Source: Gammaproteobacteria bacterium (GTDB taxonomy: Bacteria; Pseudomonadota; Gammaproteobacteria; GCA-001735895). From it: DNA of 45,786 nt. Every line of letters starts with the position of its first letter. Position 1 is the stretch's first letter. The stretch spans positions 1 to 45,786 of the forward strand of contig JAAEMR010000073.1 in NCBI GenBank assembly GCA_024225395.1. Reading direction: 5' to 3'. The notes beneath the pieces are model-generated. The model saw only the letters and a list, made by a program, of their open reading frames with translations. It ran no database searches and had not been told where the DNA came from. A program made the position numbers and the translations under genes. Shown piece after piece: positions 11,300 through 45,243 of the stretch.

Positions 11300-11357
11300 A
11301 TTTTAGTTTTTTCCAGTAGTGAATATCGTTACAAAACCACGATGAAGCAAAAATTAA

Positions 11358-11956: not shown

Positions 11957-12011
11957 ATGAATCTGGATTCATCTGAATCCTAAAGACTGGAATCCACTGG
12001 CTGAAGACTAT

Positions 12012-12500: not shown

Positions 12501-12665
12501 AACTAATTGTATTTAAATAAATTATTGCTATTTTATGGTTTAGTACGCTATCTGAAAAACCGATTATTAATTTTTTTATAATATTGTCACATTTTAGTCA
12601 TATTTTCTTAAAAATTTTTCAAATTCGATGCAGAACAATCTAAAAACTATCTAAGAGGTTAAATA

Positions 12666-13673: not shown

Positions 13674-13674
13674 T

Positions 13675-29756: not shown

Positions 29757-31559
29757 CTAGTTTACTATCGGTTCATCTATGTCCTGATCATCATCGATAT
29801 TTAATACTGTCATGGTGTCATGTAAGCCGGATTCTTTTTCGCCAGAAAATAGTATCAATCCCATTTTTACAAGGCTTCTGGCAAGATCATAAGCGTATGA
29901 TGTATCGTTCATAAGGGATGTCGCCATCTCAGATGTGATCTTGTTTTCCCGGATCATTTTATCCAGGCTGGTATTGATGTGTTGCTCATGTTCCTCAATT
30001 TCCAGAGATACAGCCTCAAGTGGGATTATGTCTTCTAAATCACCTTCAGAATTTCTCAAGGTGTACACTCGTCTCAGGACATCGCCCAGTCCAATACGTA
30101 AGGTGTTATATTCAGTCTTGATGAATTCATTATCAGATGTGATGTAGTTGCTCAGGTTTGAGTGCATGTGTTTGCTGTCCTTGATAGCTTCAACGATATC
30201 ACGACCAGCCGTACGATAATGAAACATTTCATTGACCTGATCGGAAGTCATATTCGTGTTCGCCCTGCTCATAAAGGAAATGATTTCACCAAACAGTCCT
30301 TTGATACTTTTCTCATATTCATCATCGATAACAATACTCATGGCCTTTCTACGATGTAGATTTAGTGTTTCCAGTTCTTTGTCTGACTCGATATCCTGTC
30401 GATGCAGGCTCAGCCCGTGAGCGATGATTTCATAGGCGTTATCGTAGAGGTGTATAATTTCCTTGCGTACTGCTTCAATGGCAACATCGGGAACTTCCAG
30501 TGATGAATCGTTCAGGTACCTCGATTTGTCTTTGGGAATCATTTTTTCCGGCATAGCCCGCATCAGAAAGTTCACCAGCTTATTAATGAAAGGCAACATA
30601 GCAATGACGCCGATGAAGTTGAAAATAGTATGGAATACGGCCAGTTTAAGCGTGTAATTGTCTTCATCAATACCCAGAGCATTACTGAGGACTTCGACAG
30701 CCTCTACCAGTTGATATATAAATGCGATGGCAATAGCACCTGTAGTCATATTGAATATCAGGTGTGCAAACGCCAGTCGTTTACCCTGTATGTTAGAACT
30801 CATTGACCCCAGAATTGCTGTAATGGTAGTGCCAACATTGGCACCTATTGCAAGTGCCAGTCCGTTTTCATAGGTGATTTGACCTACAGATAGAGCGGTG
30901 ATGATAATGACCAGGGTCGCGTGACTGGACTGCATGATAACCGTAGCAGCAATCCCGAGCAGGGTAAACAGCAAGATTCCACTATAACCGGAAACGGCAA
31001 ATTGAGTCAGGTCTATGGTGTCACGAAAGGCTTCAAAACCTTCCTTCATGAAGTGAATACCGAGGAAAAGAAAACCAAGTCCAGCAAGAATATAACCTAT
31101 TCCTTTAAGCGACTTTGATTTCTGAAATACCAGTACGATTCCGATCACAAGCATTGGCATAGCGTATGCTGAAATTTTCACTTTCATACCGAAGCCAGCG
31201 ATCAGCCACGCGCCGGTGGTGGTTCCAAGATTGGCACCGAAGATGATTCCAACACCGGCAGCCAGGTCAATTAAGCCGGCACCAAGGAATGAAATAGTAA
31301 TAACCGATACCAGTGAACTGGATTGCATCAACGTAGTTGAAACAACACCGAAGCTCAGACTTTTCCATATACTACTGGTAGTACGTTGTAGTATCCTTTC
31401 CAGTACACCACCGGTAAAGAACTGGAAGCCCTGTTCAAGGAAAAGCATTCCAAATAGAAAGACCGCAACTCCAGATGAAATAGCTTTGAAATCTGGACTA
31501 ATCCAGAAACCGTAGATCAGGGCTATAAGGATTGCGGGTAAAAATAATTTGCGTAACAT
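29757..31559 (-). CDS. Na/Pi cotransporter family protein (NptA-type) with PhoU-like C-terminus
   Basis: A 600-residue membrane protein. Two inverted Na/Pi-cotransporter repeats carry the QSS motif: 'TTLMQSSSLVSVITISFLGAG' and 'ATVIMQSSHATLVIIITALSV', each followed by 'GANLGTTTGAWL' and 'GANVGTTITAIL'. About eight to nine membrane helices span residues 1-340. From about 350 to 575 the protein is soluble and helical, with a PhoU-like arrangement ('EVPDVAIEAVRKEIIHLYDNAYEII'). Members such as YjbB export phosphate while others import it; direction cannot be told here. The start ATG has AGGAG about 11 bases upstream. It is 300 bases downstream of the CofD-related gene and probably has its own promoter. 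Confidence 0.92.
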   Translation of the reverse strand: MLRKLFLPAILIALIYGFWISPDFKAISSGVAVFLFGMLFLEQGFQFFTGGVLERILQRTTSSIWKSLSFGVVSTTLMQSSSLVSVITISFLGAGLIDLAAGVGIIFGANLGTTTGAWLIAGFGMKVKISAYAMPMLVIGIVLVFQKSKSLKGIGYILAGLGFLFLGIHFMKEGFEAFRDTIDLTQFAVSGYSGILLFTLLGIAATVIMQSSHATLVIIITALSVGQITYENGLALAIGANVGTTITAILGSMSSNIQGKRLAFAHLIFNMTTGAIAIAFIYQLVEAVEVLSNALGIDEDNYTLKLAVFHTIFNFIGVIAMLPFINKLVNFLMRAMPEKMIPKDKSRYLNDSSLEVPDVAIEAVRKEIIHLYDNAYEIIAHGLSLHRQDIESDKELETLNLHRRKAMSIVIDDEYEKSIKGLFGEIISFMSRANTNMTSDQVNEMFHYRTAGRDIVEAIKDSKHMHSNLSNYITSDNEFIKTEYNTLRIGLGDVLRRVYTLRNSEGDLEDIIPLEAVSLEIEEHEQHINTSLDKMIRENKITSEMATSLMNDTSYAYDLARSLVKMGLILFSGEKESGLHDTMTVLNIDDDQDIDEPIVN

Positions 31560-31859: not shown

Positions 31860-33053
31860 TCAGGTTAGTGAAAGCAGGGCTAATACCAGCAATTCCGGAT
31901 CATATAATGGTGTGCTGGATTTACTCACGAGTTTGGTAACGATAAGCTGTATACCCTTTTTTTGTAACAATGTTATTGACGGTTGATTTAACTGGCTCTG
32001 ATAGCCACTGTCCATCAAAACAAAGTTAATAAAGCGATTGGCGGCAAGTTTAGGCCCGGCGTCTGCTCTAAGGTAATCCAGCAGGGTCTGGATGGATGAA
32101 TCCATCGTCATGCCAATCTGTTCAGGATCCAGGCCAAGGTTTGGGATATATACCTTTGGGCAGTCATTACTGGCAATCGCCTTGCCGACACCGTCGGGTA
32201 ATAAATTTGCTATCAGGCTGGTATAAAAACTGCCTGGTGGATAGCAGATCAGTTCGGCATTGGTGATTAATTTACGATTCTTCTTTCGTAGTTTTGCCTG
32301 TGCTAACGATAGTTGCCGAGGATTAGTTGACAGGTATAATTTTTTTACCCGGGAAGCTAATGGTTTCTGTTCCTTACCGGTCAGTCGGTGCTGCCCAATG
32401 ATACGACTACCGTCTGCCAGGTCTGCGCAGAGAGTGAGGTTATCGTTGACGGTAGCCCTTACCGTGCCTCGAACACCGACCAGTTTGGAAAATAGAAAAA
32501 TAATGGGGTCAAGGTGTTGGTGGTTATTCAGATAACCTCCTGTAAGAATGAGATTTCCAATGCTGGCACCACGCAAATTAAATGAGGATGGCATAGCTTT
32601 GCGAAAATAACCGAGCTGAGTACGAATGAGGCGGCGCATCGGGTTGGGTACAGCTCGTACCAGTTCATCTTTACCTTCACACATTGCATCCAGTTGCATT
32701 AGTAGCTCAGCGTTTTTAGAGCTTTTGTTCAGTCGATGAGTGAACAGTTTGTAGACTTCGGGATGACCTGTAATGGTTTCGTCTGCCAGAGCCATCAGGC
32801 GACTACGCAGATCACCGATAGAAGGCATCTGAAAAGCTTTACGCAGAACGGCTGAGCTACCACCGGAATCGAATGGTGTGACCATATGAACCGAATTATG
32901 CGTATAGGACTTAAGTGTCTGGCTAAATTGATTGAGTGCAGACCCGCCACTGAAGAACAGAATATGAGGGCCTAGCTCGGGAGCTTTTCTGTAACGTCCC
33001 GCCCGTAACGGATCGGGCATCTGTATTGCTCGGGTTACGTGGATGCTTTTCAT
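31860..33053 (-). CDS. GAK system CofD-related protein
   Basis: A 397-residue member of the CofD/YvcK superfamily (2-phospho-L-lactate transferase fold). The nucleotide-type loop appears as 'HILFFSGGSALNQFSQTL', followed by 'VTPFDSGGSSAVLRKAFQMPSIGDLRSRLMAL' (compare the DDGGSSG..R...PPGDIR pattern of YvcK) and 'ELICYPPGSFYTSLIANLLPDGVGKAI'. The divergence and the companions downstream (ATP-grasp, HprK-related kinase B, amphi-Trp) mark it as the CofD-related protein of the GAK gene set; no reaction is known. The ATG at 33053 is preferred, with a TTG at 33062 possible. It is divergent from the Nudix-led operon, sharing a 237-base region with a Fur-box-like palindrome. Confidence 0.85.
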   Translation of the reverse strand: MKSIHVTRAIQMPDPLRAGRYRKAPELGPHILFFSGGSALNQFSQTLKSYTHNSVHMVTPFDSGGSSAVLRKAFQMPSIGDLRSRLMALADETITGHPEVYKLFTHRLNKSSKNAELLMQLDAMCEGKDELVRAVPNPMRRLIRTQLGYFRKAMPSSFNLRGASIGNLILTGGYLNNHQHLDPIIFLFSKLVGVRGTVRATVNDNLTLCADLADGSRIIGQHRLTGKEQKPLASRVKKLYLSTNPRQLSLAQAKLRKKNRKLITNAELICYPPGSFYTSLIANLLPDGVGKAIASNDCPKVYIPNLGLDPEQIGMTMDSSIQTLLDYLRADAGPKLAANRFINFVLMDSGYQSQLNQPSITLLQKKGIQLIVTKLVSKSSTPLYDPELLVLALLSLT

Positions 33054-33143
33054 GTCAGACAATCATAGGAAACCTGTTTTAGGTTTACAAGTGTATACGC
33101 GATATTAACCTGCAGAATCACAATAAATTTAAGCGTAATTGAC

Positions 33144-33162
33144 ATAAATCATAATCATTATT
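33144..33162. promoter_or_regulatory. Candidate Fur-box-like palindrome in the CofD/Nudix divergent promoter region
   Basis: ATAATCATTAT at 33151-33161 is an exact match to the core of the Fur consensus (GATAATGATAATCATTATC); the 19-base window matches at 14 positions. It lies about 90 bases before the CofD-related start and 140 bases before the Nudix start, where it could act on both promoters. AT-rich DNA produces such matches by chance, so this is tentative. A 6-bp stem AAACCT/AGGTTT (33070-33086) is also present just upstream of the CofD-related start. Confidence 0.3.
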
Positions 33163-33299
33163 TTGCAGTGATGGACAATGACTTATCTGGACATATTTTA
33201 GCTGTAATAAGCTACACTTCAAATGAGACTTTTTTCTGGATGTTTCATTAAATAATTTTGTTATAGGTATATTTCCAGCTAGATCCTCAGGAGATACTA

Positions 33300-33770
33300 T
33301 TGTTAAACCTTGAGCCCAATATATGTAATGCAGTACGTGCTCTTATCATTCGTGATGACAGGATTTTGTTGATCAGAAAAGAGTATGGGGGAGTTTGCCA
33401 GAAATTTGCGTTACCGGGTGGAAGGCAGGACACAGGCGAGACCCTGGCGAATGCTCTGATCAGGGAATGCAAAGAGGAGGTAGGAGCTGATATCAGCAAT
33501 ATTGCATTGTTACATGTAGTGGACTGGTTTAAGCCTCGCGATTGTATTCCGCCATTAACTCGTCAACATGTGGAATTTCTATTTTCATGCGATGTGGATG
33601 ATTCATACATTCCACAAAATGGTATTCATCCGGACAAACATCAGGTCGAAGTGATCTGGGTCAAAATTGATGCACTTGATAATCTGCCATGTCACCCGAA
33701 TTCCATGCTAGCCTTGCTGCCGGGCATTAAAAATAAAAAATCAACGATTTATTTGGAAACGATTAACTAA
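33300..33770 (+). CDS. Nudix hydrolase (canonical box), first gene of GAK operon
   Basis: A 156-residue Nudix hydrolase that would cleave a nucleoside diphosphate linked to another moiety. The Nudix box is canonical, 'GRQDTGETLANALIRECKEE' followed by 'VGA', so the Mg2+-binding REXXEE set is intact. The N-terminus 'NICNAVRALIIRDDRILLIRKEYGGVCQKFALPGG' is ADP-ribose-pyrophosphatase/MutT-like. The start is TTG with CAGGAG about seven bases upstream; no ATG fits. It is first in a five-gene operon, with the PhoU-kinase fusion starting two bases after its stop. The substrate is unknown. Confidence 0.88.
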   Translation: MLNLEPNICNAVRALIIRDDRILLIRKEYGGVCQKFALPGGRQDTGETLANALIRECKEEVGADISNIALLHVVDWFKPRDCIPPLTRQHVEFLFSCDVDDSYIPQNGIHPDKHQVEVIWVKIDALDNLPCHPNSMLALLPGIKNKKSTIYLETIN

Positions 33771-33772
33771 CC

Positions 33773-35422
33773 ATGCAGATAGATAAAAGCATACGTGAAA
33801 ATTTACGCTTTCTGATTATTGAAGTCGGTTCACAGGTTTCTAACCTGCAAACCTATTTTGATACGCATTCTGTCACGGTGGCAAAGCGTATTCTCGATCG
33901 TAGAGGTTATACTAATAATCTTAAAACAAGTATCCACAGTAGTTGCCTGGCAAGAATTGAACAAGATAAGAATGTTCGAAATGCGGCAAGTTTATTGCGT
34001 TCGACGGAAAGTGTAGCTACCGATCTGGTACGTATTGCGGAACTGTGCCGAGACTGTATTCAACAGTTTGGTTACATAGAAAATCCTAAAAACCTGCCGT
34101 CAAGGTTGTACGTGTCCTTGCTGGGTCGTATTGGCAAAGGTATACGCGTAGTCGATTTGGCCATTGTTAACAGCGACATTCAAATGGCTTTAAAGATTGG
34201 TCGTATTGAGAATAAACTGGATTGTGCATATAAAAAACTACTGAGAAAATACACTCGTGACCTGCAACTACAGAAAAAAAAGAACACGGGAGATTTGATC
34301 GCAGCGTTGTTTGTTGCTCATTCACTGGAGCAAATGGGAGATATTTTACTCAATATCAGTGAGTCAATTATTTCTGCGAATCTGGGCCAGCCCTTTAATA
34401 CAGATAGATACCATTCCTTGCAGGCTTCGGTTGAACTACTTAACGCTGTCGAAGGTAATAAATCGGAGCTGGTGCTGGAAACAGTTGCACAAACTAAATC
34501 TGGCAGTGGTATTTCCGGGGTTAGCACGACTGATGAAAAGGGGGTAGAGCACCTCGCCATCTTTAAAGATGGTCAGAAACGCAAAGTTAAGGAAGAGCGT
34601 CAGGGTGTAGAAAGCTGGCATGAAATCTTTCCAGGCCTGGCGCCAAAGATATTGTCCTATCATAAGCAGGGGCAGTCTGCGTCATTATTGATTGAGCATC
34701 TTGCCGGATTAACCTTCGAACAGATCCTGTTACACGAACCACCAAAGCTGTTAGATCAAACATTAAAACAATTACAGAAAACACTGAAATCTGTATGGAA
34801 CGAGACGCGTACTAAAAAAGCGGTATCGGCAGACTATATGGGGCAATTGCAAAAGAGGCTGGGTGATGTTTATGAACTTCACCCGGAATTCATGCACAGT
34901 GATATGCAGATCTGTAAGACTACAGAGAAATCATTTGATAACCTGCTAAATCAGGCAAAGCGTTATGAGAAGAAACTCAAAGCGCCATTCTCTGTTTACA
35001 TCCATGGAGATTTTAACGTGGATAACATCATTTACGATCCGCTGGAGAAAAAGATTAATTTTATCGATTTACATCGTTCCAGTTATATGGACTATGTACA
35101 GGATATTTCGGTGTTCATGGTTTCTAATTATCGATTGCGGGTTGTAGATCCTGTTATCCGAAGACGGATTTGTGATCTGGTCTGTAATTTCTATGACTTC
35201 TCGGCAGCTTATGCGAAAACCAGGAAGGATGACTATTTTGATCTCAGGCTGGCACTTGGGCTGGCGCGCTCGTTTGCCACTTCGACCCGTTTTGTAGTGG
35301 ATAAAACACTGGCACGAGCCATGTGGTTACGCGCCCGTTATCTTCTCGAAAGTGTTCTATTAACAGACCCCAAACAAATGCATAAATATCGTGTACTCAT
35401 TAAGGAGTTGTTCGTTGGCTAA
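33773..35422 (+). CDS. PhoU-like domain fused to aminoglycoside-phosphotransferase-type kinase
   Basis: A 549-residue two-domain protein. Residues about 1-215 are all-helical and PhoU-like (regularly spaced '...SVATDLVRIAELCRDCIQQFGYI...', '...AHSLEQMGDILLNISESIIS'). Residues about 225-549 form a protein-kinase-like APH domain. The nucleotide-binding beta sheet is near 'KRKVKEERQGVESWHEIFPGLAPKIL', the catalytic loop is 'YIHGDFNVDNIIYD' (HxDxxxxN), and the metal site is 'INFIDLHRSSYMDYVQDISVF', with D as the DFG-equivalent. Both active-site motifs are intact, so it is probably an active kinase for a small molecule, perhaps controlled by a phosphate-sensing helical domain. It overlaps the following ATP-grasp gene by eight bases. 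Confidence 0.8.
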   Translation: MQIDKSIRENLRFLIIEVGSQVSNLQTYFDTHSVTVAKRILDRRGYTNNLKTSIHSSCLARIEQDKNVRNAASLLRSTESVATDLVRIAELCRDCIQQFGYIENPKNLPSRLYVSLLGRIGKGIRVVDLAIVNSDIQMALKIGRIENKLDCAYKKLLRKYTRDLQLQKKKNTGDLIAALFVAHSLEQMGDILLNISESIISANLGQPFNTDRYHSLQASVELLNAVEGNKSELVLETVAQTKSGSGISGVSTTDEKGVEHLAIFKDGQKRKVKEERQGVESWHEIFPGLAPKILSYHKQGQSASLLIEHLAGLTFEQILLHEPPKLLDQTLKQLQKTLKSVWNETRTKKAVSADYMGQLQKRLGDVYELHPEFMHSDMQICKTTEKSFDNLLNQAKRYEKKLKAPFSVYIHGDFNVDNIIYDPLEKKINFIDLHRSSYMDYVQDISVFMVSNYRLRVVDPVIRRRICDLVCNFYDFSAAYAKTRKDDYFDLRLALGLARSFATSTRFVVDKTLARAMWLRARYLLESVLLTDPKQMHKYRVLIKELFVG

Positions 35423-36302
35423 TTTAAAAATAGGTGTAATAGGTATCCCCGGAAAGTGGTCTACCGAAGTTCTGGCAGATGCAGTTGAAAAAAAAACGGG
35501 TTTCAGACTGGTCTTAGATATGGCCGATGTCAGTCTTAATCTTGAAACCAACACACTGGTTGCGGGTGGCAGCAATCTTTGCGAGCTGGATGGTTTACTG
35601 GTCAAAAAGATAAGCGCAGTTTACTCTCCGACGACGCTTGACAGGCTGGAATTACTGCGTGTCGCAGAACAGGCGGGCGTTCGGGTATTTAGCCCGGCAT
35701 TAAGTATGTTAAGGCTTATAGATCGACTCAGTTGTACAGTGACGCTGCGTAATGCCGGAATACCGATGCCTGATACCCGGGTGACTGAGGACATAGCGGT
35801 TGCGATGGACACGGTCAGAGATTTTGGTAGTGCCGTGTTTAAACCGCTGTATTCTACCAAGGCACGTGGTATGACTATCATTGATGCGGATCAGGAGCCT
35901 GATGCGTTAGAGAGCGCTATCAGTAATTTTAAAGCTGATAATCAGATGATGTATATACAGCGTAAAATAAACTTGCCCGGCAGAGACCTGGGCATGGTAT
36001 TTTTGGCCGGTAACTACCTTGGCACCTATGCACGAGTACCTCAGGGTGATGCCTGGAATACCACTATTAATAGTGGTGGCCGTTATGCCGCGCATACGCC
36101 ACCCGATGATGTCATCGAACTCGCTTATCGTGCTCAGGCACCTTTTAACATGGATTTCACTACTGTCGATGTTGCAGAAACGGATTCAGGTCCGATTGTT
36201 TTCGAGGTATCAGCATTCGGTGGTTTTCAAGGTACCAAAGATGGTATTGGTATCGATGCAGCTGCATTATATGTGGAACATGCTTTAAAAGAGTTAGGAT
36301 AG
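35415..36302 (+). CDS. GAK system ATP-grasp enzyme (RimK-like)
   Basis: An ATP-grasp ligase of 295 residues related to RimK/alpha-L-glutamate ligases. Features seen are 'RLIDRLSCTVTLRNAGIPMPDT' (linker to the ATP-grasp core), 'AVFKPLYSTKARGM' (Lys and glycine-rich loop that bind ATP) and 'GPIVFEVSAFGGFQG' (metal-binding Glu; the usual second Asn of 'EVN' is replaced by Ser). The frame is open to 35391, but the TTG at 35415 has AAGGAG seven bases upstream, giving 'MANLKIGVIGIPGKW'. It is the 'grasp' part of the GAK set. Expected chemistry is ATP-dependent ligation of an amino or thiol group to a carboxylate; the substrates are unknown. Confidence 0.85.
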   Translation: MANLKIGVIGIPGKWSTEVLADAVEKKTGFRLVLDMADVSLNLETNTLVAGGSNLCELDGLLVKKISAVYSPTTLDRLELLRVAEQAGVRVFSPALSMLRLIDRLSCTVTLRNAGIPMPDTRVTEDIAVAMDTVRDFGSAVFKPLYSTKARGMTIIDADQEPDALESAISNFKADNQMMYIQRKINLPGRDLGMVFLAGNYLGTYARVPQGDAWNTTINSGGRYAAHTPPDDVIELAYRAQAPFNMDFTTVDVAETDSGPIVFEVSAFGGFQGTKDGIGIDAAALYVEHALKELG

Positions 36303-36303
36303 T

Positions 36304-36999
36304 ATGGGCAGACGAATAGCTGCTATTATCCGACATGGAGATTATCATCAGATGGCCGGGGCTCCTAGTGCTCATCAGCCATATCCACTGAATACCAGTG
36401 GTAAAAAACATGCTGCAGAAGCTGCTAACATTATTGATGAGATTCAACAAAAAAATGGCTGGTCACTGGCTACAGAGATCGACTGTTCGCAGATGCTTAG
36501 AGCCTGGCAGACGGCAGATATTATAGCGCAGACACTTGGAACTGAACCTGAATTGCAACTACAGAGCTTTGATGAGCTGGCAGAACGTTGTGTTGGAAGT
36601 GCTGCTAACCTCACCACTGAGCAAATAAGCCGGGTTATTCATGATGATCCTCGATATGAGGAACTTCCACAAAACTGGAAATCGAATAGTGAGTACCGGT
36701 TGCCTTTTCAGGGTGCTGAATCACTACTAGAGGCGGGTCAACGGGTTGCTGAACACCTTAATGTACGTCTCTCCAAACTTGCTGCCAATGTACCGGGTAC
36801 GCTCAAACTGTTTGTTGGACATGGCGCATCCTTTCGTCATGCTGCATATCATCTTGGTGTTATGAAATATGACGATATCGCTCGTCTGAGTATGTTTCAT
36901 GGTCGACCGGTATTTTTGGAATTATTACAGGATGGAAGCTGGGTTCATATTGCCGGAGATTGGAAAATAAGGAAAACCAATTCAGAATTCAGAGACTAA
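36304..36999 (+). CDS. Histidine phosphatase family protein
   Basis: A 231-residue member of the phosphoglycerate mutase/SixA superfamily. The phosphohistidine motif is 'AAIIRHGDYHQMAG', the second Arg is in 'DCSQMLRAWQTADIIAQTL', and the second catalytic His is in 'KLFVGHGASFRHAAYHLG'; the active site is therefore complete. The extra segment after 'RHG' and the length of 231 differ from the short SixA proteins and resemble phosphatases acting on small phosphorylated metabolites. It follows the ATP-grasp gene by one base and precedes the metallophosphoesterase by four, so it belongs to the same operon. The substrate is unknown. Confidence 0.86.
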   Translation: MGRRIAAIIRHGDYHQMAGAPSAHQPYPLNTSGKKHAAEAANIIDEIQQKNGWSLATEIDCSQMLRAWQTADIIAQTLGTEPELQLQSFDELAERCVGSAANLTTEQISRVIHDDPRYEELPQNWKSNSEYRLPFQGAESLLEAGQRVAEHLNVRLSKLAANVPGTLKLFVGHGASFRHAAYHLGVMKYDDIARLSMFHGRPVFLELLQDGSWVHIAGDWKIRKTNSEFRD

Positions 37000-37003
37000 A
37001 ATA

Positions 37004-38365
37004 ATGGGTAAAAAGTTAAAATCATACGTATTTCCCCGTTATCAGGGCGAAGAGTGGACAGGTACAAAGCTGCCAACGGTTAGTGAGAACTGGCTGGTAG
37101 GAAGGAGTCGCTCTGTTAGTAAGGATCGTTATCACCGGGAGGAATACTCCAGTGAACTGAAAAAAGTTATTGGTCAGGAAGACTGGAAATGGCCCAAACG
37201 TCCACTGTTTTTTATCTCTGACATACACGGAGATGCGGATGCGTTCATTGCTTCACTGGTGGCATCGGGGGTGATAAAAAAAACAGGCGCCAGGGATAAG
37301 GATTTTCAGGTCACAAAAGGCTTCCGTAAAGCCAAGATTCTTATTGGAGGTGACTGTTTTGATAAAGGACCAAGTACACTGCGTCTTTTACGGGTTATTA
37401 AAATTCTTCTGCGTAAACATGCGGATGTTTTAATTCTTGCCGGTAATCATGATGTTCGTATGATGCTTGGAATCCGCAGTATTGACATGGAAGCCGATCC
37501 CAGAACTGACCATTTTTTTATTCGTATGGGCAGGAAGATGGTGCCATTCCTGAAAGAGATCAGTGAACAATATTTACAGGGTAAAGAGGCTTTACGAGAT
37601 ATACCCTCTGCACGTGAATGTCGGCGAATTCTTTATCCACCAAAAAGCTGGTTTAGAGATTTTCCCCTGCATGCTGTATGGAATATGCCTGATGCAACTA
37701 TTGATAAGGAAGTGAAGAAGTTGAATGATAAAATTCGTCAGTTTGATGAAGACTGTGAGAGAGCGGATTTATCGATACGCATGGTGTATGCAGCAGCTCA
37801 AAAATGGAATGAACTGTTTCTACAGCCTAAAGGTGAATTCGCCTGGTTCTACCAGCACATGAGTCTGTGTTATCGTAAAGGTTCCCTGATATTCCTACAT
37901 GCAGGTATCGATGATCGAATTGCCGGTATCCTTAATCATTCAGACTGGAAGCAACTGAATGAGAATTTCAGAAACTTAATGTTTGGCAATCCTTATGAAT
38001 TTTACTATGGCCCGTTTGCAAATATTATGCGAACCAAGTACCGCGATGTCGATATGCCGCTAACACGTAACGGCGTAAAGAAAATTCATCAGCAGGGTAT
38101 TCGTGTTGTTGTGCACGGGCATCGTAATCTGCTGCATGGTCAAAGACTGATGTTGCGTAAGGGCTTGCTTAATGTTGAGTGCGATACAACTCTTGATCGA
38201 AATTCTCGCAAAAAGGAGGGGCTCGAGGGAGTAGGAGCTGCAGTAACAGTTATTCATCCCAACGGCTATATTTTAGGTATTAGCAACGATTATTCATTCA
38301 TTAAGTTATTCGACCCGAAACATATCGTACGCCAGATAAGAACGGTAAAAATCAAAGGTTCATAA
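37004..38365 (+). CDS. Metallophosphoesterase (PPP/ApaH-like), long form
   Basis: A 453-residue cytoplasmic calcineurin-like phosphoesterase. All metal-binding motifs are present in order: 'FFISDIHGDADAF', 'GGDCFDKGPSTLRLL', 'LAGNHDVRMMLG', 'FLHAGIDDRI' and 'VVVHGHRNLLHG'. A region of about 120 residues between GNHD and HAGID is inserted, as in fructose-bisphosphatase class III-like or long PPP phosphatases, and the first 60 residues are an unassigned basic N-terminus. It ends the Nudix-to-phosphoesterase operon and overlaps the stop of the convergent exonuclease/endonuclease-family gene by six bases. Substrate unknown; a nucleotide, a phosphoprotein or a sugar phosphate are possible. Confidence 0.87.
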   Translation: MGKKLKSYVFPRYQGEEWTGTKLPTVSENWLVGRSRSVSKDRYHREEYSSELKKVIGQEDWKWPKRPLFFISDIHGDADAFIASLVASGVIKKTGARDKDFQVTKGFRKAKILIGGDCFDKGPSTLRLLRVIKILLRKHADVLILAGNHDVRMMLGIRSIDMEADPRTDHFFIRMGRKMVPFLKEISEQYLQGKEALRDIPSARECRRILYPPKSWFRDFPLHAVWNMPDATIDKEVKKLNDKIRQFDEDCERADLSIRMVYAAAQKWNELFLQPKGEFAWFYQHMSLCYRKGSLIFLHAGIDDRIAGILNHSDWKQLNENFRNLMFGNPYEFYYGPFANIMRTKYRDVDMPLTRNGVKKIHQQGIRVVVHGHRNLLHGQRLMLRKGLLNVECDTTLDRNSRKKEGLEGVGAAVTVIHPNGYILGISNDYSFIKLFDPKHIVRQIRTVKIKGS

Positions 38366-39499
38366 GCTGATCCTGGCTAAAAGTACGGCATGATCTGAAG
38401 CGAATGCGGGGTTTTCAAAATAAGGCCGAAATGGACGCTTTGATCCTGTCGTATCGAGTCCATCCTCAGCAAAGGTAAACTGTTCCAGTCCGCAGAAAAT
38501 ATAGTCCACATTGATTGCCGGGGTCTGGCTGTCCAGTAGAGACCACTTGCTTCCGATTTTGTTGTGCAAAGCGCTATCGGGGTTTTTATCTTCAATACGT
38601 TTGTCCGGTATAGCATCAATAAAACCCGACTGGCGGATCATGTTAATTTCATCAGAGTCCGGGGTTGTATTAAAATCGCCGCCTATGACCCAGATATCTC
38701 TCTGAGACTGTTGTGTTCCAGCGGGTATACGATAATGAGTGGTTTCCTGGTAGGCAGAAACAATATTATCCAGAATCAACTCTATCTGCCGCAACCGTGA
38801 AGCTCCCGCTCGCCTGTTAAGGCGTACGTTACCCTCTCGCTCACCACTTAAAGTGTTGAGGTGAATATTGAGAAAATTGAGGTAGCGGCTTTCGCCTTCT
38901 GATTCCAGTTTTACACGACCCATGATAACCAGTCTTGGTTCTGTATCACGCTGACCGAGATATAATCCCGTGGTGATGCTAACAGGTTCAAAACAGGAGA
39001 TACATTCAGTATCAACCAGGTCTGCATCTGGTGGAATATTTTCAGGGTCTGCCCAGGGAACCCATAATTTTCTACTGCTGATGCCTTTGCGGATGCAGAT
39101 TCCGTAACCCTGCTGTACATCGACATGAGCAGGAATATAGTTTTTTACATCGCCTGTTTCTGTATAGCGGTTCCACTTGCCAGGATGAGGATTGTTGTGC
39201 GAGGTGACTGCGGGAAAAAAATAACACTGATAACCTGAAAAAATTCCCTGCAGTATAGCTCTGCCGGTCTGCCAGCGACCGGAGGGCGAAGTGGACATGT
39301 CTTCAAAGCCGATACATTCCTGCAATAAAATAATATCGGGTTGAAGCTGATCAGGAGTTTGTAGCCAGACAGCTATGCTTTCTTCCCAGGTTTTGCGGAA
39401 TGCAGCCGTGTAGCTTCCCGCTACAGGGTAGGGCCTGGAATCAAGCTGTTCAAACAACTTTGCTCCGGCCATATTCCAGCTCATAATACTGATGTCCAT
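38360..39499 (-). CDS. Endonuclease/exonuclease/phosphatase (EEP) family protein
   Basis: A 379-residue DNase I-like EEP protein. Motifs: 'ISIMSWNMAG' (Asn), 'DIILLQECIG' (metal-binding Glu), 'NFLNIHLNTLSGERE' (His), 'WVIGGDFNTTPDSDE' (Asp/Asn) and 'FASDHAVLLARISL' (Asp/His), so the active site is complete. EEP enzymes cleave phosphodiesters or phosphomonoesters in DNA, RNA, inositol phosphates or lipids. There is no signal peptide. AGGAG lies five bases before the ATG at 39499; a TTG at 39502 is less likely. It is the only gene on this strand between 33.1 and 42.7 kb and is divergent from the second Nudix-led operon. Confidence 0.88.
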   Translation of the reverse strand: MDISIMSWNMAGAKLFEQLDSRPYPVAGSYTAAFRKTWEESIAVWLQTPDQLQPDIILLQECIGFEDMSTSPSGRWQTGRAILQGIFSGYQCYFFPAVTSHNNPHPGKWNRYTETGDVKNYIPAHVDVQQGYGICIRKGISSRKLWVPWADPENIPPDADLVDTECISCFEPVSITTGLYLGQRDTEPRLVIMGRVKLESEGESRYLNFLNIHLNTLSGEREGNVRLNRRAGASRLRQIELILDNIVSAYQETTHYRIPAGTQQSQRDIWVIGGDFNTTPDSDEINMIRQSGFIDAIPDKRIEDKNPDSALHNKIGSKWSLLDSQTPAINVDYIFCGLEQFTFAEDGLDTTGSKRPFRPYFENPAFASDHAVLLARISL

Positions 39500-39667
39500 C
39501 AATTCTCCTGAATTTATTTAAAACTTCATGACGCTCTGCTGAGAGCATGAAACTATTATGCCGATACAGTAAAAAATATACAGCACAAAGCGGATACTGT
39601 CTTCGTGAAGGTTTGAAGTCGTGGTAAACTATATTCCTGTGAAATTCCTTACCAGGTTCGATTTTCT

Positions 39668-40240
39668 ATGGGTGCAGGTGTAATTCCGTTTGCTATTAAT
39701 GGTGGACAACTTCAGTTTCTTTTTCAGAAAACCTTTACTGGCAGAAAGGTCGGTTACCTGATCGATTTTGGTGGTGGTTTGGGTGATAGAGAAGACTATC
39801 ATGCAACTGCGATACGTGAATTTGTTGAGGAAACAGAAACCATGTTTCTTGACAATGATCTACAACATGCCTGTCGGTCAGATGAACGTGTAATGTCTCA
39901 GATTATTGAGGTTGATGAAATATTCGAACGTACTTTGTCTGCACATCCAAACTGGTGGTGCCGGAGACTCCCCGGGAATGGAAAAAATCCCAAAGACTGG
40001 CGAACTTATTTCATACAGTTTCCGTTTCGTGATATCTCGGCTATGAACAATGAGTGGAAACGCGATACTTCAGGCCGTTTCAAAAAACGCCGCCAACTTG
40101 TCTGGGTTTCGGCAGATAACTTACTGGAAATCTATGCCAGATCACCTGAGAAGCTATGGAAGCGTGTACGTCAACTTGAAAGTGCTGAGACATTGATCAA
40201 GGAGATTCAATCCACTCTGGTAAAATCGCAATACGCATAA
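39668..40240 (+). CDS. Nudix hydrolase, divergent box
   Basis: A 190-residue Nudix-fold protein. The box reads 'GGLGDREDYHATAIREFVEE' then 'TETM', so the metal-binding REXXEE is kept, but the glycine normally two residues later is Glu. N-terminal 'GAGVIPFAINGGQLQFLFQKTFTGRKVGYLIDFGGG' and the late 'DWRTYFIQFPFRDISAMNNEW' are unlike MutT and suggest a specialised subfamily. It is first in an operon with the HprK-related kinase, the phosphatase-Nudix fusion and the amphi-Trp protein (gaps of 34, 29 and 44 bases). Substrate unknown. Confidence 0.8.
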   Translation: MGAGVIPFAINGGQLQFLFQKTFTGRKVGYLIDFGGGLGDREDYHATAIREFVEETETMFLDNDLQHACRSDERVMSQIIEVDEIFERTLSAHPNWWCRRLPGNGKNPKDWRTYFIQFPFRDISAMNNEWKRDTSGRFKKRRQLVWVSADNLLEIYARSPEKLWKRVRQLESAETLIKEIQSTLVKSQYA

Positions 40241-40274
40241 GGTCACACAAACAATCAAATTCATGAGATTTTAA

Positions 40275-41369
40275 ATGACAAATATTACTCTAAACACACT
40301 GATTGACACGCTCTCAGCTAATGAGAAATTAATTGACGAACATCTGGATCTTTATCTGGGTGGATTTACCATGAGAATCCGCTCCAACCAGAAACCGGTT
40401 ATTGATAAGTTAGCTGCTTATTTTTCACATGTGGAACCGGGTAATGCTGAGCCTGATATTGAGATTCTTGCTATTGAACGTGATGTAATAACTGACTCCG
40501 GACTGGAGTTTATCGACTGGGCACGTGAACCCGGCAAGACCGGTCGTAAAGATGCTTATTTTGATATTCCGAATGCACGTGTCGTGCATAAGGTTCGTAC
40601 CGGCATGCTATTTTTGCAAAGTGCATCTGCAAGAATCGCAGCGGGACCGTGCCTGCAATATGATAACCAGGTTATTAATTTTATCAATTCACAGTACATG
40701 GACTGGTTACAGCATAACGGCTGGCTGATATGTCATGCATCGGGCATGGAAGTTAAGGGTCATGCTATCGGCATGGCAGGATTATCCGGCGGTGGTAAAT
40801 CTACTTTAATGCTCAATCTGATGGAAGATAACTCGGTGAACTATGTGACCAACGATAGACTCTTTATTCGCACAAACAACAGTACTGTTACAGCTCGCGG
40901 GATACCAAAATTACCGCGAATTAATCCAGGCACTATTGTATTTAATGAAAGGTTGCATGGCCTGATTTCCAAACAGCGCAGAGAAGAATTACTGCAGTTG
41001 CCAAAACAGGAATTATGGCACCTTGAAGAAAAATACGATGTGCATATTGAACAGGTTTACGGAGCGCAAAGGGTCACAACGGAGGCACAGCTGGAAGCTT
41101 TCGTCATTCTTAACTGGCAACATGATACGACTGAGAAAACAGCAGTAACCGCTGTTGATATTAATCAGCGTCGTGAATTGCTAATGGCTCTGATGAAATC
41201 ACCCGGACCGTTCTATCAGCATACTGATGGCAGTTTCCACAGTGACACAGCTGAATTCGATGAACGGTCTTACCTTGAAGCGCTTCAAGGTGTAACTATC
41301 TATGAGGTTACCGGTAAGGTTGATTTTGAACTGGCAGGCAATCGCCTGTCCGAAATACTCGATCTCTAA
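40275..41369 (+). CDS. HprK-related kinase B (GAK system)
   Basis: A 364-residue P-loop kinase related to HPr kinase/phosphorylase. Walker A is 'GLSGGGKST' at residues 169-177, followed by 'YVTNDRLFIRT' (Asp at the HprK catalytic position) and 'GIPKLPRINPGTI'. The first 160 residues are an N-terminal domain of the HprK-related B type ('FTMRIRSNQKPVIDKLAAYF'). No HPr or PTS gene is nearby, so the target is unlikely to be HPr; small-molecule or protein phosphorylation is possible. Together with the ATP-grasp, CofD-related and amphi-Trp genes it completes the GAK signature. No enzymatic function has been shown for this family to my knowledge. Confidence 0.87.
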   Translation: MTNITLNTLIDTLSANEKLIDEHLDLYLGGFTMRIRSNQKPVIDKLAAYFSHVEPGNAEPDIEILAIERDVITDSGLEFIDWAREPGKTGRKDAYFDIPNARVVHKVRTGMLFLQSASARIAAGPCLQYDNQVINFINSQYMDWLQHNGWLICHASGMEVKGHAIGMAGLSGGGKSTLMLNLMEDNSVNYVTNDRLFIRTNNSTVTARGIPKLPRINPGTIVFNERLHGLISKQRREELLQLPKQELWHLEEKYDVHIEQVYGAQRVTTEAQLEAFVILNWQHDTTEKTAVTAVDINQRRELLMALMKSPGPFYQHTDGSFHSDTAEFDERSYLEALQGVTIYEVTGKVDFELAGNRLSEILDL

Positions 41370-41398
41370 TACGTAGAAAGTCAACGGGAGACGGAATT

Positions 41399-42361
41399 AT
41401 GCTTCGTGAATTATTACTGCTTCGCCATGGAAAATCAGACTGGAATATTAATACCGATGATTTTAACAGGCCGCTGAAAGACAGAGGGAAAAGAGCTGCA
41501 CAACGTATGGGAGTATGGCTGGCAACTCATAACAAGATACCTGACATCATTATCAGCTCACCGGCCGAACGTGCTCTGACAACGGCTGAAAAATGCTGCA
41601 AGGCGATGGGGCAGGGATCCGATAATATTTTGCAGCAGCAGAAAGTCTATCTTGCTGATACCAGTGACCTGCTCCAGGTACTGCGAAAGTTACCTGCATC
41701 TGCAAATCGGGTCATGCTGGTCGGTCATAATCCCGGGTTAGAAAACCTGCTCACCTGTCTTACCGATGGTGCTGCCAAAGCTGAAGAAGATGGAAAGTTA
41801 CTACCAACGGCCACTTTAGCGCTGTTAGAGATTGAGTTGAACTGGTCAGATATTAAACAGGGCAGTGCCAGGCTGAAACGCATAATTCGTCCGCGCACAC
41901 TACCCAAACAATTTCCCTGGCCACTGCACGAAGCTAAAGAAAGACGGGATCGACCTGCTTATTATTACAACCAGTCTTCTACTATTCCATACCGTTTACG
42001 TGATGGTGAGTGTGAAATTCTGATTGTTCGATCTAGCAAGAAAAAACATTGGGTTGTTCCAAAAGGTATCCACGAACCGGGGTTGACATCACAGCAATCG
42101 GCGGCCAAAGAGGCGCTCGAAGAAGCTGGTGTTGAGGGCTCTGTAAAAGCAAAGGCTTTAGGTCGTTATAGTTACCAGAAATGGGGTGCTAACTGCATCG
42201 TTGAAGTGTATGCGATGGAAGTCAGTCATGTCATTGAAGAAAGCGAATGGGAAGAAAGGCATAGAACACGGCAATGGGTTTCCCCGCAACAAGCCGCTAG
42301 CCTGGTCAGGCAGACGGAACTCGGCCCGATGATCATGGCTCTCGAAAAAAGTACTAATTAA
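41399..42361 (+). CDS. SixA-type histidine phosphatase fused to Nudix hydrolase
   Basis: A 320-residue two-domain protein. Residues about 1-160 are a SixA-like histidine phosphatase ('LLLLRHGKSDWN', 'DIIISSPAERALTTAEKCC', 'VMLVGHNPGLENLLTCL'). Residues about 180-320 are a Nudix domain with 'WVVPKGIHEPGLTSQQSAAK' followed by 'EALEEAGVEG', the PKG-type box of the diadenosine/diphosphoinositol polyphosphate hydrolase kind. Mycobacterial MutT1 combines the same domains in the opposite order and uses them in sequence on one nucleotide; a similar two-step reaction is plausible here. GGGAG precedes the ATG. It lies between the HprK-related kinase and the amphi-Trp gene. Confidence 0.88.
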   Translation: MLRELLLLRHGKSDWNINTDDFNRPLKDRGKRAAQRMGVWLATHNKIPDIIISSPAERALTTAEKCCKAMGQGSDNILQQQKVYLADTSDLLQVLRKLPASANRVMLVGHNPGLENLLTCLTDGAAKAEEDGKLLPTATLALLEIELNWSDIKQGSARLKRIIRPRTLPKQFPWPLHEAKERRDRPAYYYNQSSTIPYRLRDGECEILIVRSSKKKHWVVPKGIHEPGLTSQQSAAKEALEEAGVEGSVKAKALGRYSYQKWGANCIVEVYAMEVSHVIEESEWEERHRTRQWVSPQQAASLVRQTELGPMIMALEKSTN

Positions 42362-42405
42362 AGAATACTTTGAAAATTAACAACCGGATTAATCAGGAAA
42401 AAAAC

Positions 42406-42678
42406 ATGCGACTCGATAAAAATACTTTCAGACACGATTCATTACAGGATACAAAATCAATTAGTAAAGTTCTGGATTCGATTACTGAAGGCTTAGCAAA
42501 AGGAAAGCTAGTCTTTAGTGATGAGGACGATAAAATTATACTAAATCCTGACGGCCTGCTTGAACTTAAGGTTACTGCCAGTCAGGAAGATAATCGTCAA
42601 AAAGTCAATGTGCGCATTAGCTGGCAAGTTGAAAGTAAAACAAAAAATAACAAAAAAAGTTTAACAGTTTCATCCTGA
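42406..42678 (+). CDS. Amphi-Trp domain protein (GAK system)
   Basis: A 90-residue soluble protein from the ATG at 42406, which has an AGGAA ribosome binding site; the open frame reaches a TTG at 42370, but the extra 12 residues do not fit. The pattern 'FRHDSLQDTKSISKVLDSITEGLAKGKLVFSDEDDKIILNPDGLLELKV ... VRISWQVE' matches the amphi-Trp domain, an amphipathic helix plus beta-strands ending in a conserved Trp. This small domain co-occurs with GAK genes and may act as a carrier or substrate protein, for example one modified by the ATP-grasp or kinase enzymes; that is inference. It ends the operon. Confidence 0.8.
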   Translation: MRLDKNTFRHDSLQDTKSISKVLDSITEGLAKGKLVFSDEDDKIILNPDGLLELKVTASQEDNRQKVNVRISWQVESKTKNNKKSLTVSS

Positions 42679-43992: not shown

Positions 43993-43994
43993 TT

Positions 43995-44477
43995 TCAGAT
44001 CTTAATGCCCTGAGGGTTCATCGCCAGTGCTTTATTCTGGTAGGATTTATCAATAGTCACTTCGCGACCAAACCAGTCAGCAGGTTCAAACTGATCAGCT
44101 TGCTCTAGAGATGAAAACTCAACCTCAACCAGCATTAAATGATCAAGTTCACCTAGAAAAACATCGAGTTCATAGCTTAGTTGTGTGTTTAACTTGCCTG
44201 TCCAACGATTTTTTTCTATTCGTTTACCCTGTGTATCCGGCCATAAAGTTTCAAATTGCTGCTGGTCAATGGAGGTTTCACGTTCTGTCCGAACCATACC
44301 CGAACCAGATTTCACGGTGATGAAATATTGCTCATCTTTTCTCCTTAATCGTATTTCAACCGAATCGCTTGATTGAGTAAGGTATCCTTGATGAATATAC
44401 GCTTTTTTTGCATTTGTAAGTTCAGGCAATTTTTTTACCAGGAATTTACGTTCTATTTCGATGTACTGGTCAGTCAT
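43995..44477 (-). CDS. CYTH domain protein (predicted inorganic triphosphatase/adenylate cyclase-like)
   Basis: A 160-residue CYTH/triphosphate tunnel protein. The signature 'EIERKFLVKKLPE' begins the barrel. 'VEIRLRRKDEQYFITVKSGSG', 'RTERETSID' and 'YELDVFLGELDHLMLVEVEF' supply the arginine, lysine and acidic residues lining the tunnel. Bacterial members studied so far are mostly inorganic triphosphatases (YgiF, NeuTTM) and many are linked to CHAD domains. Here the CHAD is a separate gene two genes upstream in the same operon. Short length means a single-domain enzyme. An inorganic triphosphatase is the most likely function, with cyclase activity possible but less likely. Confidence 0.87.
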   Translation of the reverse strand: MTDQYIEIERKFLVKKLPELTNAKKAYIHQGYLTQSSDSVEIRLRRKDEQYFITVKSGSGMVRTERETSIDQQQFETLWPDTQGKRIEKNRWTGKLNTQLSYELDVFLGELDHLMLVEVEFSSLEQADQFEPADWFGREVTIDKSYQNKALAMNPQGIKI

Positions 44478-44489
44478 TATTATATTGTT

Positions 44490-45233
44490 TTAAAGCTTTT
44501 TCTGAATTTCCTGCCAAAGTGATTGATACGCTTTGGCAGCTGGACGGCTTCGTGCAAATGTTGTCACTGGTGCACGATGAATACCCATTTTCTCAACATC
44601 TGTAGAAAAAGGAACCCTGGTTTCAAGGAATGTTTTTTTATAGCGGCTGTGTAACTGGTTCATGGTATCTATATGTAGCTTTTTCTGACGCTGAACCATG
44701 GAAAAAAAAGGTACCAGCTTTTTTCTCCCCAGGTTGTGTTTTTTGAAAAAGTCGATTAACTGCTCAAACGTACGAACAGTTAATGTGGAAGGTATGACGG
44801 GTATCACAATGTGATCGGCCGCCTTGAAAACACTTTCTGATAACGAAGAAATATTTGGAGGGCAATCAAGTAAAATGACATCATAATCGTTATTAACAGA
44901 CTTCAGTGCTTTTTTAAGCCTTGAACGGCTATTTTTCATGCGTGACAGAAAAATATCGAAATCACGATATGTCATGTTGGCAGGTAAAATATCCAGGTTA
45001 TCATAATCACTCCCTTTAATAGCATTAGTGAAACGCTTTACATCTTTAAAAAAAGATTCTTTTTTAAGATTATTAGAAGGTTTAACTCTAAAGTAAAAAC
45101 CTGAAGCACCTTGCGGATCGAGATCACAAAGTAAAGTACGGTAGCCTGATCGGGCCAGCTCATAAGCAAGGTTAACTGACGTGGCTGTTTTACCCACGCC
45201 GCCCTTGTTACTGTAACACGCGATAATTTTCAT
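44490..45233 (-). CDS. ParA/MinD-type ATPase, orphan (no ParB)
   Basis: A 247-residue ParA family ATPase. The deviant Walker A is 'SNKGGVGKTATSVNLAYELA' (residues 8-27), with 'LLCDLDPQGASGFYF' (switch I) and 'DVILLDCPPNISSLSESVFKAA' (Walker B/switch II) intact. The ATG at 45233 has GAGGT seven bases upstream and gives the family N-terminus 'MKIIACYS'; an ORF start at 45293 would overlap the CHAD gene. No parB or parS is present, so it is not a chromosome segregation pair. Such orphan ParA proteins position cargoes (McdA for carboxysomes, PpfA for chemoreceptors), and here its operon partners are CHAD and CYTH genes. Confidence 0.88.
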   Translation of the reverse strand: MKIIACYSNKGGVGKTATSVNLAYELARSGYRTLLCDLDPQGASGFYFRVKPSNNLKKESFFKDVKRFTNAIKGSDYDNLDILPANMTYRDFDIFLSRMKNSRSRLKKALKSVNNDYDVILLDCPPNISSLSESVFKAADHIVIPVIPSTLTVRTFEQLIDFFKKHNLGRKKLVPFFSMVQRQKKLHIDTMNQLHSRYKKTFLETRVPFSTDVEKMGIHRAPVTTFARSRPAAKAYQSLWQEIQKKL

Positions 45234-45243
45234 CCTTTTGACC

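Follow-up and report, generated by a model that had tools for sequence, protein, structure and literature searches.

Contig JAAEMR010000073.1 (C73 in our numbering), from a gammaproteobacterial genome of 4.45 Mb (assembly GCA_024225395.1), was analysed over 45,786 nucleotides (nt), hereafter the window, and carries a locus of the GAK system, a set of protein families (TIGR04354 to TIGR04357) that has so far been a name without a function. All four families are encoded here, namely a CofD-like protein, an ATP-grasp enzyme, the HprK-related kinase B (HprK-B) and an amphi-Trp protein, and all score above the curated cut-offs, for which the NCBIfam and Pfam scores were used (Table 1). A preliminary description of the window, made from its sequence alone, had thus named them correctly. 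On the plus strand, the order is Nudix1, PhoU-kinase, ATP-grasp, HisP1 and the metallophosphoesterase (MPE), followed, past an EEP gene on the minus strand, by Nudix2, HprK-B, SixA-Nudix and amphi-Trp. The preliminary description had placed the GAK genes and a series of phosphate-chemistry enzymes in plus-strand operons, with EEP on the opposite strand, which is right for the enzymes and the other GAK genes, but not for the CofD gene, which lies on the minus strand and has its 3' end at position 31860. The phosphate-related domains listed there are real by Pfam, with the exception of Nudix2, which falls short of the Pfam score. The XXXCH protein (TIGR04358), a fifth family that the preliminary description knew from other GAK loci but did not see here, indeed reaches a best score of only 22.7 bits in the window's genome against a cut-off of 40, and it is above the cut-off in none of the 25 genomes with GAK genes, the window's genome included. 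The window gave no match to a tRNA or tmRNA, nor to any Rfam family at the gathering score.

Table 1. Features of the GAK locus and its surroundings in the window. Scores are in bits.
Feature	Position	Strand	Family evidence and status
Na/Pi cotransporter beside CofD	29757..31559	-	NF037997 164.1 (cut-off 50); recurrent neighbour
CofD-like GAK protein (YvcK/UPF0052-like)	31860..33062	-	TIGR04357 535 (cut-off 340); accessory, divergent from operon
Intergenic region CofD/Nudix1 (divergent)	33063..33299		without a convincing PhoB site
Nudix1 hydrolase	33300..33770	+	PF00293 65.5; accessory
PhoU-kinase fusion, 549 amino acids	33773..35422	+	PhoU PF01895 47.9 (N-terminal), APH/choline-kinase-like PF01636 35.5 (C-terminal); core
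GAK ATP-grasp enzyme (RimK/LysX/MptN-like)	35391..36302	+	TIGR04356 441.6 (cut-off 300), MptN 133.7; core; start is that of the longest open reading frame, true start may be further in
HisP1 histidine phosphatase	36304..36999	+	His_Phos_1 PF00300 60.0; core, lost in part of the G189/G177 genus
Metallophosphoesterase (MPE), distantly ApaH/PPP-like	37004..38365	+	PF00149 32.9; core
EEP phosphodiesterase	38360..39502	-	PF03372 35.1; local, outside core
Nudix2	39668..40240	+	PF00293 18.2 (below Pfam 21.1); local, outside core
HprK-related kinase B (HprK-B)	40275..41369	+	TIGR04355 339.6 (cut-off 200); core
SixA-like phosphatase + Nudix fusion	41399..42361	+	His_Phos 42.0, PF00293 36.8, SixA TIGR00249 54.3 (below cut-off 74.5); accessory
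amphi-Trp protein	42370..42678	+	TIGR04354 68.1 (cut-off 31); likely start ATG 42406; core
CYTH - ParA - CHAD	43995..45786	-	PF01928 23.5, PF13614 139.3, PF05235 66.7; CHAD gene exceeds window end

Enzymes of the locus

The PhoU-kinase fusion keeps the motif HGDxxxxN together with D432 and R435 in 35 of 35 aligned rows. In its AlphaFold2 model (confidence score pLDDT 77.7, weak at about residues 205-305), the PhoU half resembles the PhoU structure 4q25 with a template modelling (TM) score of 0.86, and the kinase half matches APH(3') as well as maltokinase and the kinases for choline and ethanolamine. Against the full PhoU equivalog TIGR02135, the protein scores 46.1 bits, below the cut-off of 130.25. 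Judging from sequence and model, the fusion would physically link a phosphate-regulatory domain to a kinase.

Among PDB sequences, the ATP-grasp enzyme matches RimK and LysX. HprK-B retains GGGKST, H154, N193, D194, R195 and R215 in all 32 rows of its alignment, and we take its P-loop, the upstream His and the following Asp to be equivalent to the HPrK residues; its score with the HPr kinase family PF07475 is 17.2 bits, below the cut-off of 33.3, and its best matches among PDB sequences are the P-loops of ABC transporters. The HisP1 residues R10, H11, R66, E94 and H173 are likewise kept in 32 of 32 rows. For the MPE, the active site is identical in 26 of 33 rows, five others having one His-to-Gln exchange and two being truncated; its PDB matches, ApaH included, are weak.

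Conservation and exclusiveness of the GAK operon

The locus was compared with 22 CofD relatives on named genome contigs and with loci from further genomes and plasmids, giving 44 tabulated loci, several of them from close relatives. An ATP-grasp gene is present in 35 of the 44, and it is accompanied by PhoU-kinase in 34, MPE in 32, HisP1 in 31, HprK-B in 31 and amphi-Trp in 26; most of the missing core genes fall at the end of the available stretch. In the recurring order, CofD points one way and Nudix1, PhoU-kinase, ATP-grasp, HprK-B, SixA-Nudix, HisP1, MPE and amphi-Trp follow each other in the opposite direction. The full order was seen in Onishia taeanensis, in the Escarpia, Lamellibrachia and Bathyaustriella symbionts and in a Sedimenticola metagenome-assembled genome (MAG), and a Ketobacter MAG has the block minus Nudix1 and SixA-Nudix. 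Plasmids of the Rhodobacterales Qingshengfaniella, Tritonibacter and Pseudooceanicola carry the GAK block without SixA-Nudix, with a Nudix gene only in Qingshengfaniella; on the Tritonibacter plasmid record, no CofD gene lies within 14 kb. The clade of the window differs in its order, HprK-B standing downstream of MPE, and locus L008 has the same layout including EEP and Nudix2.

According to BLASTP, Nudix1 has a match in 18 of the 32 other loci (L004/L063 and L005/L069 being one contig each), EEP in one (L008) and Nudix2 in two (L006 and L008). The last two genes, which had been counted as part of a dense GAK cluster, are therefore local. Locus L121 is decayed and L111 is without HisP1. In genome G042, the GAK operon is gone from between CofD and the Na/Pi gene, at the place where G050 has it, and the flanks are kept (L064 versus L065). 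Pairwise distances, with no species tree behind them, correlate between the families at 0.45-0.93, which is compatible with co-inheritance. As read from these gene orders, a conserved operon of PhoU-kinase, ATP-grasp, HprK-B, HisP1, MPE and amphi-Trp exists both among the Pseudomonadota that were searched and on the Rhodobacterales plasmids, whereas CofD, Nudix1 and SixA-Nudix are optional, and EEP and Nudix2 are local. Since the GAK families match and the kinase and phosphatase genes are conserved elsewhere, the claim that these enzymes accompany GAK beyond this genome stands.

Several loci show features of their own. PhoU-kinase is split over two frames in the tubeworm symbiont loci L010 and L018 (in L018 also SixA-Nudix and CorC), which might be an assembly frameshift or decay. 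To the right of CofD in L007 and L008, SixA-Nudix is directly followed by a CorC-like gene, a second copy in L008, and CorC-type pairs beside CofD also occur in tubeworm symbionts, L015 and L017.

In 397 evenly drawn genomes of Pseudomonadota, the GAK ATP-grasp enzyme was found in 14 (13 above the cut-off). All 13 genomes with the PhoU-kinase fusion lie within these 14, although two of the matches aligned only from model positions 76 and 101; a 14th match covers the PhoU part only. The amphi-Trp protein is present in 22 genomes, 12 of them among the 14, and CofD exceeds its cut-off in six, five of the 14 with ATP-grasp versus one of the 383 others. This is more than expected by chance, with hypergeometric values that treat the genomes as independent and are uncorrected for kinship. 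In 28 chosen genomes, MPE was detected in 13 of the 14 ATP-grasp genomes. It is also present in G209, whose genome is fragmented and encodes an amphi-Trp protein of the GAK type as well; G414 gave one weak match of 26 bits, and the other 12 gave none. In a set of 72,556 plasmid records, PhoU-kinase and MPE each match five, and these are the identical five; they also lead the 65 records listed for the GAK ATP-grasp enzyme, with 58-63% identity, the next listed row being at 26.5%. Because of these genome and plasmid counts, we regard PhoU-kinase and MPE as GAK proteins, found almost only with GAK, and CofD as an accessory. Judged by its genes, GAK is larger than its four named families.

PhoB-type sites and phosphate-related neighbours

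Promoters were compared in the genus of genomes G189 and G177. The GAK MPE is encoded in 36 of its 48 species; all 36 regions upstream of PhoU-kinase were taken, and for one of them (L173), whose available stretch starts within the gene, the gene start was extrapolated. A Halomonas-like identity of this genus, considered at first, does not agree with its median G+C of 0.45 versus 0.62 in the Onishia locus L021. A first PhoB matrix had been drawn from the genus and was circular for it because it was built from that genus; it was replaced by a matrix from 21 sites of Escherichia coli identified by chromatin immunoprecipitation sequencing, given as rows without brackets in the source (PMC10294691). 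At least six further E. coli sites, such as feaR/feaB, rhsE, yhjB/yhjC, yhjJ, hemC/cyaA and frwA/frwC, were omitted from the matrix. With it, a site of at least 13 bits was found in 33 of the 36 regions, where 0.11 would be expected from their own flanking DNA, and 29 of the 33 sites lie 55-100 nt upstream in the orientation of the operon. A PhoB consensus gave a similar picture, at least 11 of 14 positions being matched in 25 of the 36 regions versus 0.43 expected. The consensus of the sites in this genus is YTGTMAYATAACTGTCAT (3 of the 25 sites were excluded for their place). The hexamer TATAGT follows exactly 21 nt past the box in 15 of the 36 regions, and TAAAGT or TATACT stands there in four more. 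PhoB is described as binding an 18-bp Pho box in Halomonas too (PMC4563254). Of 26 regions from elsewhere, 25 of them from other loci and one from the window, 8 have a site at p < 0.04.

The CofD gene is located outside the GAK operon in this genus. In G177, it comes after ugpB-A-E-C, all above cut-off, a GDPD gene, a GlpR-type regulator and a HAD-type gene; the GDPD gene is ugpQ-like with 218.7 bits, below the cut-off of 264. The best PhoB site of this 16.5-kb CofD locus stands immediately before ugpB, and ugpBAECQ, pstS and phoA are listed as PhoB regulon operons in E. coli (PMC10294691). The CofD locus of G189 is like that of G177 in the sizes and order of its open reading frames (the ugp genes were not searched there by family), with an additional intervening IclR-type gene.

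In a search with a profile from the window's gene, the window and 12 other loci (L004, L005, L008, L010, L011, L012, L013, L015, L018, L023, L064 and L065) were found to have a Na/Pi cotransporter gene at most 8.4 kb from a GAK gene. We group these loci into about six lineages. The background estimate for this linkage is rough, as it assumes two copies, 3.5 Mb and 15 independent lineages.

CHAD-ParA pairs recur as well. L115 has one immediately in front of PhoU-kinase, and in L117 the pair stands after MPE and ahead of amphi-Trp; the L015 pair, on a stretch without the operon core, adjoins SixA-Nudix and CofD. In the window, CHAD and ParA are found together with CYTH near amphi-Trp, and these three genes and a small Nudix-like one come after GAK at 43588-45786 (-). 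CHAD domains are described as binding polyphosphate (PMC6537752), and the recurrent pairs suggest a ParA-positioned polyphosphate system, as far as gene order can tell.

The two best PhoB matches of the whole window (16.0 and 15.5 bits, 11 nt apart) are arranged in tandem at 12574-12602, just before gapdh-arsJ (12666-14895); these predicted sites suggest phosphate control of the operon for the ArsJ-associated GAPDH and arsJ, which serves arsenate resistance. A gene for ApaH (Ap4A hydrolase) lies at 24985-25896 on the strand of CofD, 6 kb off, and ApaH genes adjoin GAK in L116, L119 and L120, which are from three genomes of a single family of organisms (f44). Two lysine-rich proteins are encoded on the minus strand, one at 42766-43278 with a helix-turn-helix and a long tail rich in Lys, the other at 27251-29092, CorC-like and with 11 lysines in a row. 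AlgP is likewise Lys-rich. Both window proteins recall this protein, which is described as histone H1-like and as belonging to polyphosphate granules (PMC9239181).

The amphi-Trp and CofD-like proteins

GAK-linked amphi-Trp proteins of most lineages have an N-terminal motif, FxHxSLQD, before a helix. Among 11 loci labelled as orphans, eight are outside the GAK profile, two are weak matches without the motif and one, that of G209, has it; by its MPE, G209 is a GAK genome. The amphi-Trp protein is the sole non-enzyme of the core, and one might speculate that HprK-B phosphorylates it at Ser24 or His22 of this motif in an HPr-like relay, that HisP1, the SixA domain or MPE dephosphorylates it and that the other enzymes respond. 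HPr kinase homologues are described as phosphorylating lasso precursor peptides on a C-terminal Ser, and in Proteobacteria as polyphosphorylating it (PMC8498205), and SixA as dephosphorylating the phosphocarrier NPr (PMC7948535). Ser24 and His22 were invariant in the first 15 sequences, but we abandoned them as a universal phosphoacceptor when the G189/G177 genus was included, which keeps the operon but has Ala in place of Ser24 in 33 of 36 proteins and Tyr in place of His22 in 19 of 36. Across 60 distinct GAK amphi-Trp proteins (identical sequences merged), the columns conserved to at least 90% are F, L, L, G, G, F, P, G, L, K, A and W, with no Ser, Thr or Tyr column among them; a mostly-Lys column holds 54 Lys, 4 Arg and 1 Ser (n = 59). 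Within the genus, HisP1 is absent in 11 of 19 genomes with Tyr22 versus 1 of 17 with His22 (Fisher p 0.0013), L160 being the counter-example with His but without HisP1. This would fit a relay, yet it is unsupported on the tree, where, with 3 Tyr changes and 4 HisP1 changes, only 2 independent pairs are supported (3-4 when all branches are counted), and a co-loss of HisP1 and His22 was therefore rejected. Furthermore, nothing in the PDB matches the amphi-Trp model (pLDDT 71.5) at E 0.001. Taken together, we consider a relay through the amphi-Trp protein distinctly improbable. A fixed covalent acceptor is unlikely on this protein, judging by the alignment, because the 60 sequences have no invariant acceptor column.

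The CofD-like protein (CofD-GAK) scores 131.1 bits with PF01933 (cut-off 30) and 121.8 bits with the YvcK family TIGR01826, below the cut-off of 196. Its GG...DSGGS, N170 and PPGS are kept in 30 of 32 rows. At E 0.01 it has five matches among PDB sequences, all UPF0052 or uncharacterised (2ppv, 2o2z, 2hzb, 2p0y and 2q7x), and no CofD enzyme structure is among them. The preliminary description had suggested that perhaps a YvcK/CofD-type activated metabolite is ligated to the amphi-Trp protein, which, in its full form, would mean that CofD makes the metabolite, the ATP-grasp enzyme attaches it to amphi-Trp as a carrier and it is phosphorylated and dephosphorylated there. LysX ligates to the carrier LysW, the presence of a RimK/LysX-like ATP-grasp enzyme next to a CofD-like gene is in line with such chemistry, and the two co-occur beyond chance. 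However, 9 of the 14 ATP-grasp genomes are without CofD above the cut-off, CofD-GAK matches YvcK/UPF0052 structures, and the amphi-Trp proteins vary at their C-terminus and share no acceptor side chain that is invariant. Carrier chemistry is therefore, in our view, very unlikely and that suggestion is not upheld.

Domains of the CofD/YvcK type also occur in frames of 599-695 amino acids in other Pseudomonadota (L040-L045 and L048), with 65-101 bits to TIGR04357. Beside one of these frames, the L040 gene, no GAK core gene is present in L071, the only such locus examined.

Discussion

From the PhoU domain, the PhoB-type sites, the ugp linkage and the Na/Pi and CHAD-ParA neighbours, we therefore propose that GAK serves phosphate limitation by a reversible phosphorylation that is gated by PhoU, with a core operon of six genes and optional CofD, Nudix and SixA-Nudix genes; we put the probability of this proposal at about 0.5. 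The phosphate theme of the preliminary description is thus backed by evidence that lay beyond it. The operon, the co-inheritance and kept active sites of its genes, the PhoB-type sites of one genus and the ugp and Na/Pi neighbours are properties of the genomes themselves, from which we infer the PhoU gating, the order of reactions, the role of amphi-Trp and the use of the predicted PhoB sites. Phosphate scarcity would turn the operon on, which in at least one genus would be the work of PhoB. The PhoU domain would sense the phosphate status and gate the attached kinase, which is of a small-molecule type. This kinase and HprK-B would phosphorylate a substrate, the ATP-grasp enzyme may then extend or cap the phosphorylated substrate, and the two phosphatases would reset it, so that the level of the phosphorylated compound would track the phosphate status. 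The amphi-Trp protein might act without catalysis, as a partner or effector, rather than as a covalent carrier.

A number of observations weigh against this proposal. The window's own GAK promoter is without a PhoB site, its best match having 9.0 bits (p 0.087), and its 8 of 14 consensus positions are equalled by 197 of 200 shuffles. Outside the G189/G177 genus, 18 of the 26 regions have no PhoB site at p < 0.04, and five of the eight sites that do pass (L113, L114, L008, L007 and L006) face opposite to the operon; L065 had p 0.008 with the first matrix and p 0.168 with the second. The 36 promoters are those of one genus and hence not independent events, and in the 200 nt further upstream, where the median identity is 0.55 (40 random pairs), some are near-copies of up to 0.96. 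No PhoB site matching at least 11 of 14 positions was found in the CofD locus of G189, and the Na/Pi gene is absent in 7 of 23 genomes searched. As for the core itself, L006 shows no amphi-Trp and no SixA-Nudix within the 2.3 kb past HprK-B, and HisP1 is missing in 12 of the 36 GAK loci of the genus; in these 12 genomes it is absent genome-wide (14 genomes searched, of which 2 have HisP1).

The same enzymes could also make and remove a diffusible phosphorylated or pyrophosphorylated signal. In eukaryotes, inositol-pyrophosphate signalling uses an ATP-grasp kinase, a histidine phosphatase, a Nudix enzyme and a phosphate-sensing domain, and GAK might resemble it in outline, with PhoU replacing the sensor. 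The likeness of the kinase half to small-molecule kinases, the presence of ATP-grasp, histidine phosphatase and Nudix domains in the locus, and the PhoB sites and ugp linkage are all in line with this analogy. However, the PDB matches of the ATP-grasp enzyme are amino-acid ligases of the RimK/LysX type and no inositol kinase, and Nudix1 and SixA-Nudix stand outside the core, and we therefore regard such a signal as possible but unlikely. A bolder version, which seems improbable to us and is drawn by analogy, is that GAK is a so far unrecognised phosphate-signalling pathway of bacteria, PhoB-induced and a counterpart, in its logic, of eukaryotic SPX/inositol-pyrophosphate control: the PhoU-gated kinase, the ATP-grasp enzyme and the HprK-type kinase would make a new phosphorylated messenger and the phosphatases would erase it.

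The plasmids of the Rhodobacterales and the L117 operon, in which AAA_21 and RloB-like genes are found, raise the question whether GAK is an anti-phage defence or toxin-type island. Yet of ten cluster proteins submitted to PADLOC only Nudix1 matches a model (PDC-S07, 44.3 bits), on which result we rejected GAK as a defence system; the PhoB-type sites and the presence of the GAK MPE in 36 of the 48 species in the G189/G177 genus also speak against this idea, which has hardly any probability left. The AAA_21 ATPase and RloB-like genes of L117 lie at 11105-12796, between MPE and CHAD, and look like a defence-like insertion.

The open-licence literature, outside which most subscription papers lie, yielded nothing on the GAK system, amphi-Trp or an HprK-related kinase, and strict combined queries of it returned no paper joining PhoU/APH/ATP-grasp/HprK, ATP-grasp/HprK/CofD or phosphate-starvation terms. 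The proposed link to phosphate is the first testable role for GAK, and the redefined core, the two families that are almost exclusive to it (PhoU-kinase and MPE) and the PhoB-type sites of one genus make a direct experiment possible.

Relation to known systems

The Bacillus subtilis operon yvcI-yvcJ-yvcK-whiA-crh similarly brings together a Nudix protein, a YvcK-like protein and a function related to HPr kinase; this is a resemblance only, and it differs in that no HPr-fold protein was found in GAK. CofD-GAK resembles UPF0052 structures, the family of YvcK/GlmR, but it remains under the TIGR01826 cut-off and has unlike neighbours. In Listeria, YvcK/GlmR is described as an accessory uridyltransferase (PMC10128056). 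The HPr-kinase homologues of lasso-peptide clusters are, from what their description says (PMC8498205), also enzymes adjoining a small protein, whereas the GAK amphi-Trp protein lacks a conserved C-terminal Ser. In the part of the E. coli survey consulted (PMC10294691), no GAK gene is named among the Pho operons and the window's promoter is siteless, but GAK shares with the PhoB regulon operons the PhoB-type boxes before it in the G189/G177 genus and, in G177, the position of CofD behind ugp. Compared with the GAK system as defined by its four families, all of which are encoded in the window, XXXCH is absent and CofD is less constant here, whereas PhoU-kinase, HisP1 and MPE occur with roughly the constancy of the named families.

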